Shown piece after piece: positions 3,203-29,232 of a DNA stretch of 36,765 nt (the first letter of the stretch is position 1; every line of letters begins with the position of its first letter). Source of the stretch: a virus. Location of the stretch: positions 1-36,765 of the IMG/VR virus record IMGVR_UViG_3300009104_000056. One strand, written 5' to 3'. The notes under the pieces are model-generated. The model was not told the DNA's origin, did no database searches, and worked only from the letters and a program-made list of their open reading frames with translations. The translations under genes and the position numbers were made by a program.

Positions 3203-3793
3203 ATGGCTTTGATGGGATCCGATCAGGCGAAACTGGAGCAGGACGAGCAGGCGCGTGCCGTGCTCGACTGGTTGGGGACGCAGGGCGCGCAGGCTTTGTT
3301 GCAGCAGGTGGCTGCCGACAGGGCGCAGCGGGCTGATCAGCCTGATATTCAGCGTGGCCAGGAGGAGGTGCAGCGGCGCCGCGATCAGGCTGTGCATGAC
3401 TGGTTGAACACTCCTGAGGCGCAGCGGTTCTTGATGGGCCGTGAGGATGCCGATATTGCTATGCGTCAGCAGGCGCAGCGTGGCCCTGGTACGGGCGCTG
3501 GTCCGCAACCTCAGCCTGCTCCTGCGCCTCAAAGCGGGGGGCATTGGCGCCCGCATCCACAGCGTGATCGGATGATCGAGGGCGTTCTGGCGAATCAGGG
3601 CGGAGGCTTTCCCTTTACGGAAAGTGCCCCGCCAGTACCCATGTTGTCGCCTTCCACGCGGAGGCCGTCGCCTGGCCAACTGTCAGGGATGCGGTACCAG
3701 CGTGTGGCAGAAAACCAATTTGCCCCGCAGCGTGGCCGATACGACGCCCAGCAGGTACCACAACAGGGTCCGCGATACTTTATGGGGCGCTAG
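3203..3793 (+). CDS. Virion-internal protein candidate A, modular (196 aa)
   Basis: AGGAG precedes ATG 3203. The helical N-terminal half has two copies of a short motif: VLDWLGTQGAQALL (about residues 20-33) and VHDWLNTPEAQRFLMG. The second half is low-complexity Pro/Gln/Gly, followed by SPGQLSGMRYQRVAENQF. Both the W-L-x-T-P-E-A-Q-x-F-L motif and the GMRYQR motif recur in the next, 560-aa protein, so the genes share modules. Location between tail genes and the giant virion protein, plus disordered Gln/Pro-rich composition, suggests an ejected internal virion protein. This is inference; no known family was recognised. Confidence 0.6.
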   Translation: MALMGSDQAKLEQDEQARAVLDWLGTQGAQALLQQVAADRAQRADQPDIQRGQEEVQRRRDQAVHDWLNTPEAQRFLMGREDADIAMRQQAQRGPGTGAGPQPQPAPAPQSGGHWRPHPQRDRMIEGVLANQGGGFPFTESAPPVPMLSPSTRRPSPGQLSGMRYQRVAENQFAPQRGRYDAQQVPQQGPRYFMGR

Positions 3794-13583: not shown

Positions 13584-13888
13584 TGCCTGATGAATGGGAG
13601 ACGTTTCTAGCCGAGCACGGCGACGACATCACGTCTTCTGTTCACGAAAGCATGATGCGCGAGGCGCATCTGTTCGACATCGAGGACGGCACTCACGCTG
13701 GGTGGTGTGGCGACAAGCTCGGGGTTCTCATCGTCTTGACGGAGGAGGAGGCCGAGGGGTTGGTGTCGGAGGATTGGCGCGCCCAGCACGGGTTCATTGT
13801 GCATCCCGTGTTCAAAGAATTTTTCGGCAGGCTGATTCAGGACATGACGTTGCGGGCGTTGGACGCCCGCCCCGACCCTGAGATCTAG
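13583..13888 (+). CDS. Acidic hypothetical protein, last gene of the rightward block (101 aa)
   Basis: Starts MPDEWETFLAEHGDDITSSV with TGATG coupling to the holin. The centre has a strand-like hydrophobic segment (KLGVLIVLTEEEAEGLVSED), the C-terminal part is helical, and the overall charge is acidic. No known domain recognised. Its stop TAG (13886-13888) is part of CTAG, which also supplies the stop of the convergent gene on the other strand, so the two opposing blocks meet with no spacer. Confidence 0.65.
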   Translation: MPDEWETFLAEHGDDITSSVHESMMREAHLFDIEDGTHAGWCGDKLGVLIVLTEEEAEGLVSEDWRAQHGFIVHPVFKEFFGRLIQDMTLRALDARPDPEI

Positions 13889-14307
13889 TCGAGATAGTCG
13901 TCTAGGTAGTATTTGTCTGCCAGTTCAGGCATCTTGCGTTTCAGGATTTCCGCTAGAAGCCTGGGTGCTTCGTCGCGTTTGCGCGCCACCGTCGTTTTCG
14001 GTATGCCCGTGTGACGTTGCGCTTCCCTGAGCGACATGCCTGCGACCCAGATCGCTTCGATGGCGAGGCGGTGCGCTTCGGGGAGTTCCATCAGGGCGTC
14101 GATGACGACCTGATCTTGAGGAGTCGGCTTTCTGTTGCACGCCGACAGGATGCGGGGGCCACGGCTGGGGGGCGCCTCCATGAGGGCGGCGGACGAGTTG
14201 AGCGGCCTGTTCATGTCTCCCAGGGGGAGCACCGCACGGTAAAAGTCTTCCGCTAGGGCTTCGTCAAGCAGCCAACTGGATGGGTCTACGTTGACTGTTT
14301 TCGGCAC
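13885..14307 (-). CDS. Sigma-region-4-like HTH protein (140 aa)
   Basis: GTG start at 14307. The C-terminal half has a sigma-70 region 4 / HTH layout: VIDALMELPEAHRLAIEAIW (about residues 68-87) followed by MSLREAQRHTGIPKTTVARK (91-110), the recognition helix being near TTVARK. The N-terminal 60 residues are variable and contain no region-2-like motif, so it is not a full sigma factor. As the last gene of the early block it is a good candidate for a late-gene activator or transcription adaptor; that role is inference. The stop shares CTAG with the convergent gene. Confidence 0.65.
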   Translation of the reverse strand: MPKTVNVDPSSWLLDEALAEDFYRAVLPLGDMNRPLNSSAALMEAPPSRGPRILSACNRKPTPQDQVVIDALMELPEAHRLAIEAIWVAGMSLREAQRHTGIPKTTVARKRDEAPRLLAEILKRKMPELADKYYLDDYLD

Positions 14308-24390: not shown

Positions 24391-24406
24391 GTTGCCGCAC
24401 GGCAAC
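24391..24406. repeat. Small hairpin
   Basis: GTTGCC-GCAC-GGCAAC lies between the 24-aa and 37-aa genes. No T-run follows on either strand, so a weak transcript-processing or pause structure is more likely than a terminator. Confidence 0.45.
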
Positions 24407-24777: not shown

Positions 24778-24937
24778 CCTGCTCCTCCTGCTCGATGTGC
24801 TCGTTGTGATCACGACGCACCCACTGCTCCGTGGCGCGCCACCTGGTAGAGAACCAATCGCACCCATCAGGGCACGAACACTTCCCACCTACTCCTAGTG
24901 AGCCAGCGGGAATCAGAACCAGTTGATGACTACTCAT
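24767..24937 (-). CDS. C2H2-type small zinc protein, first gene of the early block (56 aa)
   Basis: Reads MSSHQLVLIPAGSLGVGGKC then SCPDGCDWFSTRWRATEQWV. Cys22-x3-Cys26 and His44-x2-His47 give a C2H2-like pattern with a helix between, plus Cys20. AGGAGGTGG lies upstream of ATG 24937, and the 12-base string ACTAGGAGGTGG is repeated 22 bases further upstream. As the promoter-proximal gene it would be the first early protein made. Confidence 0.6.
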   Translation of the reverse strand: MSSHQLVLIPAGSLGVGGKCSCPDGCDWFSTRWRATEQWVRRDHNEHIEQEEQDAD

Positions 24938-24978
24938 ACCGTCCACCTCCTAGTGGATATGCGGCCACCTCCTAGTCG

Positions 24979-24996
24979 TTGTGCCACGTAGCACAA
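24979..24996. promoter_or_regulatory. Palindromic operator, copy 1
   Basis: TTGTGCCACGTAGCACAA, inside a larger near-palindrome with 10-bp arms GTCGTTGTGC and GCACAACGAC (24975-25000). It overlaps the expected -10 of the candidate early promoter and lies upstream of the first early gene. Same core occurs twice more on the other side of the regulator gene. Confidence 0.8.
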
Positions 24997-25017
24997 CGAC
25001 GACCAGGCGACCGTCAA
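24989..25017 (-). promoter_or_regulatory. Candidate early promoter
   Basis: On the minus strand TTGACG (25017-25012) is a good -35. Seventeen bases on, GTGCTA (24994-24989) is a poor -10 but lies inside operator copy 1. A regulator bound there would cover the -10. It directs transcription toward 24.9-13.9 kb, immediately after the terminator of the regulator gene. Confidence 0.4.
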
Positions 25018-25020
25018 TAA

Positions 25021-25058
25021 AAAGAAAACAAGAAAAGGCGGACCCTTTCGGGTCCGCC
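25021..25058 (-). terminator. Intrinsic terminator of the regulator gene
   Basis: GGCGGACCC (25037-25045), loop TTTC, GGGTCCGCC (25050-25058) form a perfect 9-bp stem. On the minus strand it is followed by TTTTCTTGTTTTCTTT. It lies 19 bases after the stop of the 250-aa regulator, so that gene is transcribed as a single unit, separated from the early block. Confidence 0.88.
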
Positions 25059-25076
25059 CTCTCTCTGTGTGTGTGG

Positions 25077-25829
25077 TCAGTCAGTACCGTCCGACAGGAT
25101 GCCCGCCATAATCTCGGCGGTGCAATCCATGTCCACGTGGACCAGCTCGGTATCCGTCGGAACGGCCCCGAGCGTCTCGCCGATAATCTCCCAATCCCTC
25201 CCGATAATCGGGAGGAACTCGGCGAAGGCGTCGGGGTCCCCACGGAAGGCAACGGCGAAGGCCGTAAGGCCCGCCACCTTGCCTTCGGGGTCCGTCGGCT
25301 CGGCTTTCAAGTCGTGTCCGTTGGGCTTGGACTTGGACTTGGACTTGGACTCGGTATCCGTGTCCACGACGCCTTTACGCATGGTGCGTACTGCCGTCGC
25401 ATGATCCCGAGCCGACTCGGCCGTAAGCGTGCCCGCCTTCCGAGCCTCGGCAATCCACTCCACTATCTGAGTGCGCCGAGCCCCACCATCCGCCCATGCC
25501 TCGGCCTGCAAGGCCTTGTACACAGAGAACGGAACGGACACGAGGCGGACAGACTTCGGGAACGAAGCGGCCGTGTTGCGGGCCGCCACGAGCGTCGTCC
25601 TGTCCATGCCCGCTTGGGCGCCGAGCCGAGAAAGGATCTCGGATTCCGTGGTCTCGGCCCCGTCTCGGGAAGTCCAGCGGACCTTGGTCCGTGGGAACTC
25701 CACGAGCAGAGCGTCGCCCATCTTGAACATGGCCGACCCAACGGCCTTGATGGCTTTCACCAACGGGCCGTATTCCTTCCGAGTCTTCTCGGTGCGTTCG
25801 GGTACTGACTGACTGCCTTCGGTACTCAT
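25077..25829 (-). CDS. Putative DNA-binding transcriptional regulator (250 aa)
   Basis: ATG 25829 has GGGAGGGAG upstream; the open frame continues to 25976 but without support. Residues 60-105 (ESEILSRLGAQAGMDRTTLV, AARNTAASFPKSVRLVSVPF) resemble the HTH-containing segment of actinophage and Streptomyces proteins of the layout 'L..y..vA..WP...R...s...H..La', so a DNA-binding role is likely. A Lys/Ser linker (KSKSKSKS, 162-168) encoded by tandem TTGGAC hexamers separates it from an acidic C-terminal domain (about 185-250). Its own terminator, and three palindromic sites flanking it, suggest an autoregulated repressor of the early block. Without an integrase, the phage may be lytic, plasmid-like, or regulate timing only. 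Confidence 0.65.
   Translation of the reverse strand: MSTEGSQSVPERTEKTRKEYGPLVKAIKAVGSAMFKMGDALLVEFPRTKVRWTSRDGAETTESEILSRLGAQAGMDRTTLVAARNTAASFPKSVRLVSVPFSVYKALQAEAWADGGARRTQIVEWIAEARKAGTLTAESARDHATAVRTMRKGVVDTDTESKSKSKSKPNGHDLKAEPTDPEGKVAGLTAFAVAFRGDPDAFAEFLPIIGRDWEIIGETLGAVPTDTELVHVDMDCTAEIMAGILSDGTD
25327..25350. repeat. Tandem hexamer repeat in the regulator gene
   Basis: Four units of TTGGAC on the plus strand encode the Ser-Lys linker of the regulator. In-frame copy-number changes would lengthen or shorten the linker without frameshift. Confidence 0.8.
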
Positions 25830-25865
25830 GGTCTCTCCCTCCCATAGGGCGAGAGCATCGAGCAC

Positions 25866-25883
25866 TTGTGCCACGTGGCACAA
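25866..25883. promoter_or_regulatory. Palindromic operator, copy 2
   Basis: TTGTGCCACGTGGCACAA, a perfect palindrome extending to 20 bp (25865-25884). It lies 36 bases upstream of the regulator's start codon, in position for autorepression. Confidence 0.82.
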
Positions 25884-25997
25884 GGCCCGAGGCAGTCGCT
25901 CTATGGAGTTGGTAAGTAGCAAGTGCCCGCCTATCTGACGGACATACCAATTCTCGCATAGTCCCAATCCATACACAAGGACCGACTAGGGCCGACC

Positions 25998-26015
25998 TTG
26001 TGCCACGTAGCACAA
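25998..26015. promoter_or_regulatory. Palindromic operator, copy 3
   Basis: TTGTGCCACGTAGCACAA, identical to copy 1. It lies 24 bases before the TTGACT of the rightward candidate promoter and about 170 bases upstream of the regulator gene, so it could affect both directions. Confidence 0.8.
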
Positions 26016-26039
26016 GAGGGTGCCCGCTAGGTGTCGGGC

Positions 26040-26068
26040 TTGACTTTTCGGCGACCATCGACTAAGCG
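26040..26068 (+). promoter_or_regulatory. Candidate rightward promoter 1
   Basis: TTGACT (26040-26045), 17-base spacer, TAAGCG (26063-26068). The -35 is strong and the -10 weak. The first GRGAA inverted repeat begins nine bases later, near the expected start of transcription. Confidence 0.4.
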
Positions 26069-26077
26069 CCTGGAAAC

Positions 26078-26090
26078 GAGAACCATTCTC
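26078..26090. promoter_or_regulatory. Inverted-repeat box 1
   Basis: GAGAACCATTCTC: arms GAGAA/TTCTC around CCA. Same design as the next two boxes. Flanked by AAAC on the left and AAAA on the right. Confidence 0.75.
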
Positions 26091-26140: not shown

Positions 26141-26153
26141 GGGAATCATTCCC
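26141..26153. promoter_or_regulatory. Inverted-repeat box 2
   Basis: GGGAATCATTCCC, extending to TGGGAATCATTCCCA. Arms are GGGAA/TTCCC with centre TCA. Immediately downstream of candidate promoter 2. Confidence 0.75.
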
Positions 26154-26164
26154 AAAACGAAAAC

Positions 26165-26177
26165 GAGAACGATTCTC
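26165..26177. promoter_or_regulatory. Inverted-repeat box 3
   Basis: GAGAACGATTCTC, one base different from box 1. It is preceded by AAAACGAAAAC. Centre-to-centre spacings are 63 bp (box 1 to 2) and 24 bp (box 2 to 3). Confidence 0.75.
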
Positions 26178-26500
26178 AGCTCAGCCGTCGCCCAGCCGTC
26201 GGGCGGGGCACCCCCACGGGGGGCGGGGGCCAAGCCACCCCCCATGTATAGATATGGATTCCCGATGCGTTCGAGTCTGCGTTGCCCGCGTGCCGTGTAA
26301 CTTTGCGGGACTATACACTGTATTGATTTGCGGGGGCTCGGCCCAGTCCTTGGGGGGCCTGGGCCTCGCTGCTAGCGGCTGGAGGGCGACGCTCCGCGTC
26401 GCCCGTGCCTAGCCCTTTTTTCATTAGCGGGGGTTGTCCCACTGCGCCGTTTCAGGCATGTAGCGTGGGACAGGGTTCGGGTGTTTGTGGAGGTGGTTTG
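26178..26500. other. Late-gene leader region without a gene
   Basis: No convincing coding frame. It is GC-rich with C/G homopolymer runs (26200-26250). TTTGCGGG occurs twice, 25 bases apart (26302-26309, 26327-26334), around ACTATACACTGTATTGA, a possible further promoter. GGCCCAG (26340-26346) and CTGGGCC (26359-26365) can pair. TGTCCCAC (26435-26442) and GTGGGACA (26465-26472) form a longer-range inverted repeat just before the small terminase ribosome-binding site. Confidence 0.6.
26384..26421 (+). terminator. Terminator-like hairpin in the late leader
   Basis: GGGCGACGC (26384-26392), loop TCC, GCGTCGCCC (26396-26404) make a 9-bp stem. A run of six T (26416-26421) follows after 11 bases, further away than in a classical terminator. 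It sits between the candidate rightward promoters and the first late gene, so it may act as an attenuator. Confidence 0.5.
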
Positions 26501-27272: not shown

Positions 27273-27542
27273 ATGAAAGTTTGGATTGACCAGGATCTTT
27301 GCACGGGGGACGGGATTTGTGTTGAGATTTGTCCGTCGGTGTTCGACATGCACGAGGATGGTTTGGCGTATGTCAAGGAAGCCGACTGGCCTACCCTCTG
27401 TGGGCCAGATGGCAGCCCACGGGGTGAACCCGTTTATCAGATGGCCGAAGGGCGGGCGGTAGTTCCTGAAGGGGATGTTGATGCCGCTATTGAGGCTGCT
27501 GAGGAATGTCCTGGCGAGTGCATTTTTCTTGAGGTCGAGTAG
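27273..27542 (+). CDS. Ferredoxin, Asp-containing single-cluster type (89 aa)
   Basis: A small soluble electron carrier. The N-terminus MKVWIDQDLCTGDGICVEIC is a classic ferredoxin start: Cys10, Asp13, Cys16 and Cys20-Pro21 follow the CxxDxxCxxxCP spacing in which Asp replaces the second cysteine, as in Pyrococcus furiosus ferredoxin. The distal Cys79-Pro80 (AAIEAAEECPGECIFLE) completes the site. A 3Fe-4S cluster or an Asp-ligated 4Fe-4S cluster is therefore expected. A 25-residue insert (about 37-63, with Cys43) lengthens the central loop. It lies between terminase genes with direct start-after-stop packing, so it is co-expressed with packaging proteins. A ferredoxin in this place is unusual; the partner enzyme is not in the window. 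Confidence 0.92.
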   Translation: MKVWIDQDLCTGDGICVEICPSVFDMHEDGLAYVKEADWPTLCGPDGSPRGEPVYQMAEGRAVVPEGDVDAAIEAAEECPGECIFLEVE

Positions 27543-28430
27543 GTGAGCCGTCTCGGCGAGCTGCGCCAGGAGGCCGAGTGGCGTAAGTGCGTTCGTGACG
27601 AAAAGTATTTTTTGCGGACGTATTGGCATATTGCGCATCCTGCGCATGGCCGCATCTTGTTTGATTTGAGGCGTGCTCAGGCTGCCGCCATCGACCATTG
27701 GGATAGTAACCGTTATTCTTTGACGTTGAAGGCCCGTCAGATCGGCTGGTCTACGTTGGTGGCGGCGCACCAGTTTTGGTTGGCGTTTTTTCATCCTGAT
27801 CAGAACATTATTGATTTGTCTCGTACGGAACGTGAGGCTGTCCAGTTGTTGCGGAAGACGAAGTACGGGTTTTCGCATTTGCCGAGGTGGATGGTTGATC
27901 GCGGCCCCAGGCAGCTTGTTGAGCATCAGCAACGCATGTTTTTCGGTAATGGTTCCCAGATTGTTTCGATGCCGTCAGCGTCGGATCCTGCGCGTGGCGA
28001 GTCCGCCACGCTTATCGTGGTGGACGAGTGGGCGTTCTTGCCGAACCCCGAGGAGGCGTGGGCTTCTATCGAGCCTGTCGCGGATGTTGGAGGGCGGATC
28101 ATTGGGTTATCGACCGCGAATGGATCAGGAAACTTTTTTCACCATCTTTGGGTGGGGGCGAGCACGGGGAACAACAAGTTTGAACCCATGTTCTACCCGT
28201 GGTCTGCCACGGAGGATCGTGACGATTCGTGGTATGAATCGAAGGTTGAGTCGATGTTGCCGTGGCAGTTGGCTCAGGAGTATCCGACGACGCCTGAGGA
28301 GGCGTTTGTAAAGTCGGGGAATCCCGTGTTCGATTTGGATGTGTTGGACGACATGATGGTGCGTTGCCGCCCTGGGTTGTCGGGGTATTTGCACGAGTTG
28401 TCGGCCAGGTCTGTGGAGTTCAGGTCGTGA
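27543..28430 (+). CDS. terL: Terminase large subunit, ATPase part (295 aa)
   Basis: DNA-translocating motor domain only. GTG 27543 follows the ferredoxin stop directly. Walker A-like LKARQIGWST (62-71) with Lys63, Arg65 and Thr71 is of the K.RQ.G.ST form usual in large terminases. Walker B is LIVVDEWAF (157-165), with Glu162 as catalytic base. The coupling motif is GLSTANGSG (188-196). The protein ends at ...SGNPVFDLDVLDDMMVRCRP plus about 20 residues, where intact terminases continue into the nuclease domain; here the nuclease is a separate gene. The stop overlaps a small zinc-ribbon GTG (GTGA). Confidence 0.9.
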   Translation: MSRLGELRQEAEWRKCVRDEKYFLRTYWHIAHPAHGRILFDLRRAQAAAIDHWDSNRYSLTLKARQIGWSTLVAAHQFWLAFFHPDQNIIDLSRTEREAVQLLRKTKYGFSHLPRWMVDRGPRQLVEHQQRMFFGNGSQIVSMPSASDPARGESATLIVVDEWAFLPNPEEAWASIEPVADVGGRIIGLSTANGSGNFFHHLWVGASTGNNKFEPMFYPWSATEDRDDSWYESKVESMLPWQLAQEYPTTPEEAFVKSGNPVFDLDVLDDMMVRCRPGLSGYLHELSARSVEFRS

Positions 28431-28561
28431 ATTGTTGGCGTTGTGACTCCGAGTTGGTGTGGCAGGGGGATTACGACTTTCCAGATCACGGCGACGAGGT
28501 GACGGTCACCCGTTTGGATTGTTTTGGTTGCGATGCTCACGTCGAGGTGTATTTGCCGTGA
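28427..28561 (+). CDS. Zinc-ribbon protein between terminase halves (44 aa)
   Basis: GTG 28427 overlaps the ATPase stop and its own stop overlaps the nuclease GTG (both GTGA), so all three are translationally coupled. Reads MNCWRCDSELVWQGDYDFPD then HGDEVTVTRLDCFGCDAHVE. CxxC (residues 3-6) and CxxC (32-35) make a zinc ribbon. Such peptides (C..C...L.W.GD.......C..C...VE.Y) are met as separate small genes in other phages. It may structurally bridge the two terminase parts. Confidence 0.75.
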   Translation: MNCWRCDSELVWQGDYDFPDHGDEVTVTRLDCFGCDAHVEVYLP

Positions 28562-29232
28562 GTTTGGAGGTTTGGTGTAAGCCTCAGGGGGATCACGCGT
28601 ACGTGTTGGGGGTGGACACGGCTGAGGGTTTGGGCCACGGCGACTATTCGTGCGTTCAGGTGCTGGACGTGAACACGGGCGAGCAGGCGGCAATATGGCA
28701 CGGCCATATTCCGCCCGACGAGTTGGCTGCCGAGGTGATGCGGGTCGGCTTGTGGTATCGGGATGCGTTGTGTTGCGTCGAGTCGAACAATCATGGTTTG
28801 ACGACGATCACGATGCTGCGCCAGTTGGGGTATCCGCGTCTGTTTCGGAAGCGGTCGCTGAACCAGGCGACGGCGAAGGTGTCGATGGAGTTTGGTTGGC
28901 GTACGACGCGCACGTCGAAGCCGTTGATGATCGACGATTTGGGGATGGCGTTACGCAACGAGGAACTTCAACTGTTTGACCGTCATACCGTGGGGGAGTT
29001 GCGGACGTTTACCCGCAACGAGCGGGGCACGATGTCGGGGTCACCGTATGACGACAGGGTGATGGCGTTGGCGTTGGCGAACCAGATGCGAAAGTATGCT
29101 CACGCCCCCGAGTATGTTGAACATCCCGACGATTATTGGACGGTCGAGTGGTTTCGGAGGCTTGCGGTGGCCGATGACCACGACTCTGGGGGTTACAGGA
29201 TCGGGGCGAGCAGTGTCCGTGGGACACCCTGA
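28558..29232 (+). CDS. Terminase large subunit, nuclease part (224 aa)
   Basis: RNase-H-fold packaging nuclease. The frame is open from 28459, but the N-terminal 33 residues of that longer form are a shadow of the zinc-ribbon gene; GTG 28558 gives MSLEVWCKPQGDHAYVLGVD. Metal-binding acids are all present: Asp20 (LGVDTAEGLGHGDYS), Glu75 (CCVESNNHG) and Asp165/166 (GSPYDDRVMALALANQ). It would cut concatemers into unit lengths. With the preceding ATPase gene it reconstitutes a full-length TerL of normal size (about 520 aa). Confidence 0.88.
   Translation: MSLEVWCKPQGDHAYVLGVDTAEGLGHGDYSCVQVLDVNTGEQAAIWHGHIPPDELAAEVMRVGLWYRDALCCVESNNHGLTTITMLRQLGYPRLFRKRSLNQATAKVSMEFGWRTTRTSKPLMIDDLGMALRNEELQLFDRHTVGELRTFTRNERGTMSGSPYDDRVMALALANQMRKYAHAPEYVEHPDDYWTVEWFRRLAVADDHDSGGYRIGASSVRGTP

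Follow-up and report, generated by a model that had tools for sequence, protein, structure and literature searches.

A 250-aa protein encoded at the junction of the two main gene blocks of a phage genome is probably a sequence-specific DNA-binding regulator, and three copies of an 18-bp palindrome around its gene would be its operators, the whole forming an exchangeable module of ~1 kb. The window, that is, the stretch of DNA that was analyzed, comprises an entire virus record (36,765 bases). Its right-going strand encodes large terminase, portal, scaffold, capsid protein, and endolysin together with a weakly matched small terminase, and its left-going block encodes RusA, primase, DnaB-like helicase, exonuclease, and DNA methyltransferase. 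The regulator gene (25077–25829, minus strand) and the palindromes occupy the junction of these blocks. A ferredoxin-like gene (27273–27542; Fer4_15, E = 2.8e-17) stands between the genes for small and large terminase, with a similar frame in L024 (2078–2353; L numbers denote the loci and contigs that were compared). The large terminase is seemingly split into two frames (27543–28430 and 28459–29232), the first of which encodes a part of 295 aa, a length that recurs in L012, L018, and L046.

Three Palindromes around the Regulator Gene

The palindrome TTGTGCCACGTRGCACAA occurs at 24979–24996 (copy A), 25866–25883 (copy B), and 25998–26015 (copy C). Copies A and C are identical, copy B differs by one base that makes it a perfect palindrome, and the gap between copy B and the ATG of the regulator gene (25829) is exactly 36 bases. 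These observations confirm the first-pass annotation, which had also seen no copy elsewhere. The latter holds for TTGTGCCACGTRGCACAA itself: the window contains no fourth site at up to three mismatches (mean expected by chance 0.05 over 100 dinucleotide shuffles, largest count in any shuffle 2), and a query with the perfect palindrome at up to five mismatches returned the same three sites and none further. It needs the addition that a related, different palindrome, GTTGCCGCACGGCAAC, is present at 24391–24406. Among viral contigs, the exact TTGTGCCACGTRGCACAA pattern was found in two only, L004, which is the window's own phage (99.96% identity), and L005, where it was rejected as a chance occurrence because the contig shows no similarity to the window and the site falls within a reading frame.

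Copy A is located between the first early leftward genes and an intrinsic-terminator-like hairpin of 16 pairs (25030–25065, minus strand), which lies 3' of the regulator gene and sets it apart from copy A and the early block. The ribosome-binding word CCACCTCCTA (minus strand TAGGAGGTGG) occurs twice at 24943–24974, upstream of the first early leftward genes, and is also found in L012, L018, L089, L113, and L124; we take it to resemble the start-associated sequences of Cluster K phages.

A Candidate Regulator Family

For the 250-aa product, Pfam gave no match at E values up to 5, the PDB no sequence match, and PHROG only two chance-level matches. Annotated phage records contained no relative (tblastn with E up to 0.01, and likewise a DNA search), and plasmids gave a single weak match (E = 0.5). 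Matches of the family profile to RecA fusion chains in the PDB (best E = 4e-5, summed over repeats) and of single family members to Pfam (best E = 0.009) were judged spurious. Homologues were identified by tblastn in L012, L013, L018, L024, and L085, within a set consisting of the best 80 of 142 relatives retrieved through the portal protein and one phage genome. A second set of loci was retrieved through the small terminase (best 80 of 233 relatives). In 80 loci with at least 400 bases upstream of the terminase, frames on the minus strand (90 residues or longer, no farther than 3 kb upstream) were searched with a profile, which gave 18 matches, window included, representing 14 distinct sequences. 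The 11 loci with a complete regulator gene were used for comparison; L087 (the window's phage), L093 and L094 (same protein as L018), L013 and L090 (the same contig, cut, like L012), and L085 and L122 (both cut) were dropped. The comparisons suggest that the 250-aa protein represents a new regulator family with co-diverging operators.

Palindromes Change with the Regulator

For each locus, the most alike pair of near-palindromes was sought in the 200 bases past the stop and the 250 bases before the start of the regulator gene. Ten of the 11 loci contain a pair that flanks the gene and differs at 0–2 of 16 bases, and no such pair appeared in 300 shuffles of each of the ten. The upstream copy is located 34–190 bases before the start and the downstream copy 68–104 bases past the stop, beginning 97–104 bases past it in eight loci, 73 in L024, and 68 in L155. 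An upstream copy is also present in the cut loci L013, L085, and L122, and the three-site geometry of the window is common to L018 and L091. Loss of the palindrome from a relative that keeps the regulator was found in L089 only, a distant homologue (25% identical in the DNA-binding region) without such a repeated palindrome (its best pair is equalled in 87 of 300 shuffles).

Four palindrome types occur within the one protein family, TTGTGCCACGTRGCACAA in the window (16-base word TGTGCCACGTAGCACA) versus GTTGCCACGTGGCAAC, GTTGCCGYACGGCAAC, and GATCTACATAGATC elsewhere. GTTGCCACGTGGCAAC and close variants are found in L018, L091, L113, L124, and L125, the GTTGCCGYACGGCAAC type in L012 and L088, and TGATCTACATAGATCA and close variants in L024 and L155. 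Specificity appears to follow regulator similarity, though not strictly: L018/L091 and L113/L124/L125 share a near-identical palindrome with regulators that are 22–35% identical in the DNA-binding region. A further point against the operator reading is that only 5 of the 25 copies in the ten loci are perfect 16-bp palindromes. The kept positions, the co-divergence, and the block difference and predicted fold described below all argue for the earlier proposal that the protein binds the palindromes.

The arms of the palindromes co-vary between phages, as an RNA stem would, and a very improbable reading takes them as RNA hairpins acting as attenuators, processing elements, or termination elements. 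Copy A stands directly ahead of a ribosome-binding sequence, and the central four bases, which would form the RNA loop, are self-complementary in only 13 of the 25 copies in the ten loci. However, the centre is self-complementary in all three copies of the window, a T-run follows none of them, and the same word is found on both sides of the regulator gene.

A scan of bacterial genomes (terminase alignment and two peptide patterns) detected one relative, L163, on a contig of an Acidimicrobiaceae TMED189 assembly, which may be a phage contig binned with that assembly. In L163, the slot is occupied by a different protein, and a strict repeated palindrome is absent. The host may be a marine actinobacterium, a guess from this contig and from the assembly name TMED189. 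The TMED189 genome encodes ParB and contains an exact parS (TGTTTCACGTGAAACA), as would suit a host protein such as a chromosomal ParB that binds the palindromes next to an unrelated phage gene. This is scarcely credible, since the palindromes vary with the phage regulator, and one host factor would presumably demand one sequence.

The Regulator and Its Sites Differ as One Block

The regulator and its three sites differ as one block from L089. Matches between the window and L089 stop at 24959 and restart at 26029, and the block between them (24960–26028) holds the regulator gene and all three palindromes, the outer two lying 19 and 13 bases inside its ends. The left boundary depends on one 25-base match (24935–24959), and the flank to its left is itself mosaic, since only 51 bases match L089 between 24262 and 24934.

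The small terminase of L088 is 100% identical to that of the window, and the three longest DNA matches between the two show 95.2%, 92.8%, and 96.7% identity. In the DNA-binding region, the two regulators share 41% identity, and the L088 palindromes are of another type. The junctions are less sharp than in L089: the stretch 24854–25073 matches at 78.5% though the palindrome has changed, and on the right side the match restarts only at 26184. The palindrome GTTGCCGCACGGCAAC (24391–24406) is of the type found in L088 and L012, whose regulators are different. Its surroundings can be aligned with L088 at position 3793, and we read this palindrome as an orphan operator of an earlier regulator. It may also be a functional second site, because L155 carries a word of this type where the sequences do not align; the GTTGCCGCACGGCAA copy in L155 was rejected as a relic, as its sequence is not alignable with that of the window.

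A Predicted ParB-Like DNA-Binding Fold

The regulator gene product is predicted to have a DNA-binding fold like that of ParB, Noc, and KorB, without the CTPase domain. An AlphaFold2 model built on the 11-row family alignment has pLDDT block means of 82–94 for residues 11–150 and low values beyond (overall 69.9, pTM 0.56). The best 19 rows (10 entries) of a Foldseek search against the PDB were all ParB, Spo0J, or SopB, with a best E value of 0.047 at probability 1.00, none at or below 0.001, and TM-scores of 0.26–0.35 by query length. VIA-align gave Z scores of 8.4 to 6y93 (Noc with its site; 111 residues, 3.1 Å), 8.3 to Noc, 8.0 to 4umk (Spo0J with parS), and 6.2 to 1r71 (KorB), and of 9.2 to Raf1, which is outside the ParB/Noc family. 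The predicted fold is a lead and not a proof, since helical folds can reach such Z scores without kinship. Among predicted structures of viral proteins, a fold search had no match with E below 0.001 (best 1.0e-3, an uncharacterised phage protein).

The N-terminal ParB/CTPase domain is absent, ParB families of Pfam gave no match, and there is no room for a CTPase domain because the DNA-binding match starts at residues 12–33 (ParB, Noc, and KorB rows). At E values of 10 or less, the HTH_ParB profile PF17762 matched none of five phage records (the window among them); the host-lineage genome had two matches. A profile comparison with 12 ParB proteins of the candidate host lineage gave E values of 0.12–0.31, against 0.05–0.1 for reversed controls. 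A profile–profile match over 115 columns (28% identity, E = 1.4e-6; reversed control E = 0.87) was found to WP_331749703.1, a Streptomyces antimycoticus plasmid protein of the DUF6192 family (PF19691). The matched region (21–141) is largely N-terminal to its Pfam domain (93–336), and PF19691 was not matched by the phage protein in Pfam at E up to 5. As a lead, the central domain of the model resembles the DNA-binding domains of proteins that bind palindromes of 16–18 bp.

The sites can be compared with parS as well. Copy B (TGTGCCACGTGGCACA) agrees with parS (TGTTTCACGTGAAACA) at 12 of 16 positions and copies A and C at 11 of 16; the sites of other family members are less parS-like. It is nevertheless improbable that the palindromes are centromere-like sites and the protein a ParT-like partition protein that keeps an extrachromosomal prophage. 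Such a role would suit the predicted fold similarity to ParB/Noc domains, the 12 of 16 positions shared by copy B and the parS consensus (PMC7383237), the integrase not found in the window, and the example of ParT, which binds an 18-bp inverted repeat without having a CTPase domain (PMC12260392). Yet the palindromes stand at gene boundaries, the GATCTACATAGATC type is unlike parS, and the ParA-type ATPase PF13614 was found in none of 12 phage records, window included, which may be fragments.

A bolder and rather doubtful extension of the predicted fold is a ParB-like clamp without CTPase, serving the virus as a transcription switch, that would load at the palindromes at both module ends, spread over the intervening DNA without nucleotide, and silence both divergent blocks. 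Uncultured phages, perhaps of marine Actinobacteria, would then have diversified this clamp into numerous regulator/operator pairs, blind to one another and exchanged through recombination.

A Proposed Switch between Early and Late Genes

The first-pass annotation had placed one palindrome over the candidate early promoter and another near rightward promoters. A strict promoter scan returned none of the promoters it had named, whereas a permissive scan, which listed many other matches and had no null, places weak candidates at these positions. On the minus strand, TTGACG lies near copy A (25017), with the centre of copy A at about −4 of this weak promoter candidate. The rightward candidates are TTGACT-N17-TAAGCG (26040–26068, plus strand; a consensus match only, with no null) and TTGACA-N17-TAGCGA, and the same scan found TTGAC[TA]-N17-TATGGG at a comparable place in L018, L091, and L113. 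Copy C is thereby located 68–80 bases upstream of a predicted rightward start in four of 10 phages (the window, at ~68, and these three), and no such promoter adjoins copy C in L012, L088, L124, or L125 in the permissive scan. In L018 and L091, a copy lies 35 and 34 bases before the regulator start, respectively, with its centre at about +2 (L018) and +4 (L091) of a TTGACA promoter candidate.

In the preferred reading, the regulator/operator module has the leftward early block on one side and the rightward late block on the other, and a symmetric dimer of the 250-aa protein most likely binds each palindrome. Bound at copy B, the protein would limit its own synthesis; from copy A it would shut off the early genes, and from copy C it would affect the rightward promoter, although the position of copy C suits activation or looping just as well as occlusion. 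Related phages would carry versions of the module with other specificities. The arrangement is probably an autoregulated phage switch in which the early block is repressed, repression being read from position only; its purpose may be lysogeny or mere early-to-late timing. The sign of each regulatory effect is inferred, because the promoter scan was permissive and had no null.

A less probable account, which overlaps with the preferred one, holds that the phage is strictly lytic and that the protein is an activator or timing factor and not an immunity repressor, turning on the late genes from palindrome C and limiting the early genes. The distance between copy C and the candidate rightward start in the four phages would suit an activator, and the search for recombinases would suit a lytic phage: among records that may be fragments, tyrosine integrase (PF00589) was found in one of 20 and serine recombinase (PF00239) in none of 12, and neither was found in the window. 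Integrase could, however, be missed because the records may be incomplete, the rightward promoter beside copy C was not found in L012, L088, L124, and L125, and private specificities suggest selection for immunity, which would be more typical of temperate phages.

Other Regulators and Elements around the Slot

A wider survey took in the 48 loci in which 1500 bases or more precede the terminase, grouped into 44 clusters at 95%. A repeated strict palindrome was found upstream of the terminase in 15 of the 44 clusters, with three or more copies in 11, and in none of the other 29; 20 shuffles per locus gave none. Downstream stretches of equal length had a repeated palindrome in 0 of 26, against 8 upstream of the same 26, a control that is not matched for intergenic content because virion genes fill the downstream side. 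L113, L124, and L125 escape the strict count. Six of the 15 palindrome clusters have the 250-aa regulator family and 9 do not. Among these 9, slot proteins without a family-profile match occur in L046 (TATGTCACGTGACATA), L099 (ATTAACCGTGGTTAAT), L128 (CTTATCCTAGGATAAC), and L157 (CACGCACCAGTGCGTG). An alignment of other slot regulators showed no profile relation to the 250-aa family, and the structure predicted from it was poor (mean pLDDT 55). The slot is occupied by an AAA ATPase of the AAA_5/MoxR type in L039 (4714–5871, from a profile scan) and in L037 (117–1373, judged by sequence).

Several further elements were observed around the slot. In the leader of the regulator gene, L012 (2001–2021), L085, L113, L124, and L125 contain an inverted repeat whose arms change together (CACGGGTCAGCGTGACCCGTG, CATAGGTCAGCGTGACCTACG, CACGGGCCAGCGTGGCCCGT), possibly an attenuator or a second operator. 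A second set of small palindromes, GAGAAYSATTCTC / GGGAATCATTCCC, adjoins the rightward promoter candidates of the window (26078–26090, 26141–26153, and 26165–26177); it is common to L089 despite the different regulator, and partly to L012, and the palindromes are probably sites of another regulator. Of 80 related loci, 69 contain the element ATGTATAGATA (26244–26254 in the window) in the 450 bases that precede the small terminase; it has 0 copies on either strand in 803,690 other bases of small-terminase loci (not dereplicated), which makes it a strong candidate for a late promoter or packaging element. As a guess, it might be served by an HTH protein encoded at the end of the left-going block (13885–14307; HTH_psq above the cut-off, sigma-70 region 4 below). 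Just ahead of the small terminase gene, an inverted repeat GTCCCAC...GTGGGAC (26436–26471) may form an RNA hairpin or a packaging site; GTCCCA-N10-40-TGGGAC is present in 41 of 80 related loci.

Comparison with Known Systems

The family offers likely binding sites together with natural specificity variants, so that the rules of recognition are directly testable. Uncultured phages may carry exchangeable immunity-like modules, and if the ParB-like fold holds, ParB proteins without a CTPase domain extend from plasmid partition to virus gene control. No phage regulator of this kind was found among the matches listed for ParB-like phage repressors, DUF6192, and ParT in the open-licence literature of PubMed Central.

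ParT of the Streptomyces plasmid SCP2 likewise has a ParB-type DNA-binding domain without a CTPase domain, followed by a flexible linker and a C-terminal part, and its site is an 18-bp inverted repeat, as the phage sites would be (PMC12260392). The system studied here belongs to a phage and differs in that no ParA gene was found, several boundary sites surround the gene, and the sites change with the regulator. The ParT study states that ParT homologues are mostly actinobacterial and that structural homologues may have functions beyond segregation (PMC12260392). KorB of plasmid RK2 is a transcription repressor with a DNA-binding fold that the model resembles, but it is a CTPase sliding clamp that works with KorA (PMC11790492), whereas a CTPase domain would not fit into the phage protein. 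ParB and Noc, which rank with the closest structural neighbours of the model, bind the 16-bp palindromic sites parS and NBS and have shifted specificity within one fold (PMC7383237). In contrast, the phage protein has no detected sequence homology to them and no CTPase domain, and its sites are placed as for regulation, those of ParB/Noc presumably as for segregation. A survey of the ParB-CTPase fold that includes phages covers proteins having that domain (PMC12704722). The DUF6192 protein matches the phage protein by profile, yet largely outside the PF19691 domain.

The repressor of Cluster A mycobacteriophages has another fold. It too has several sites and a group-specific, co-diverging specificity, but its stoperators are 13 bp long (PMC6550527), numerous in each genome, and reportedly asymmetric (PMC9283540). 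The operator of the phage BPs repressor has a 12-bp palindrome as one of its halves (PMC4557955). Like immunity-repressor modules, the phage regulator appears to have its own sites near its start and at the early block and a private specificity. Its functional kind, a phage regulator/operator module, is already known, and its fold is possibly unusual.
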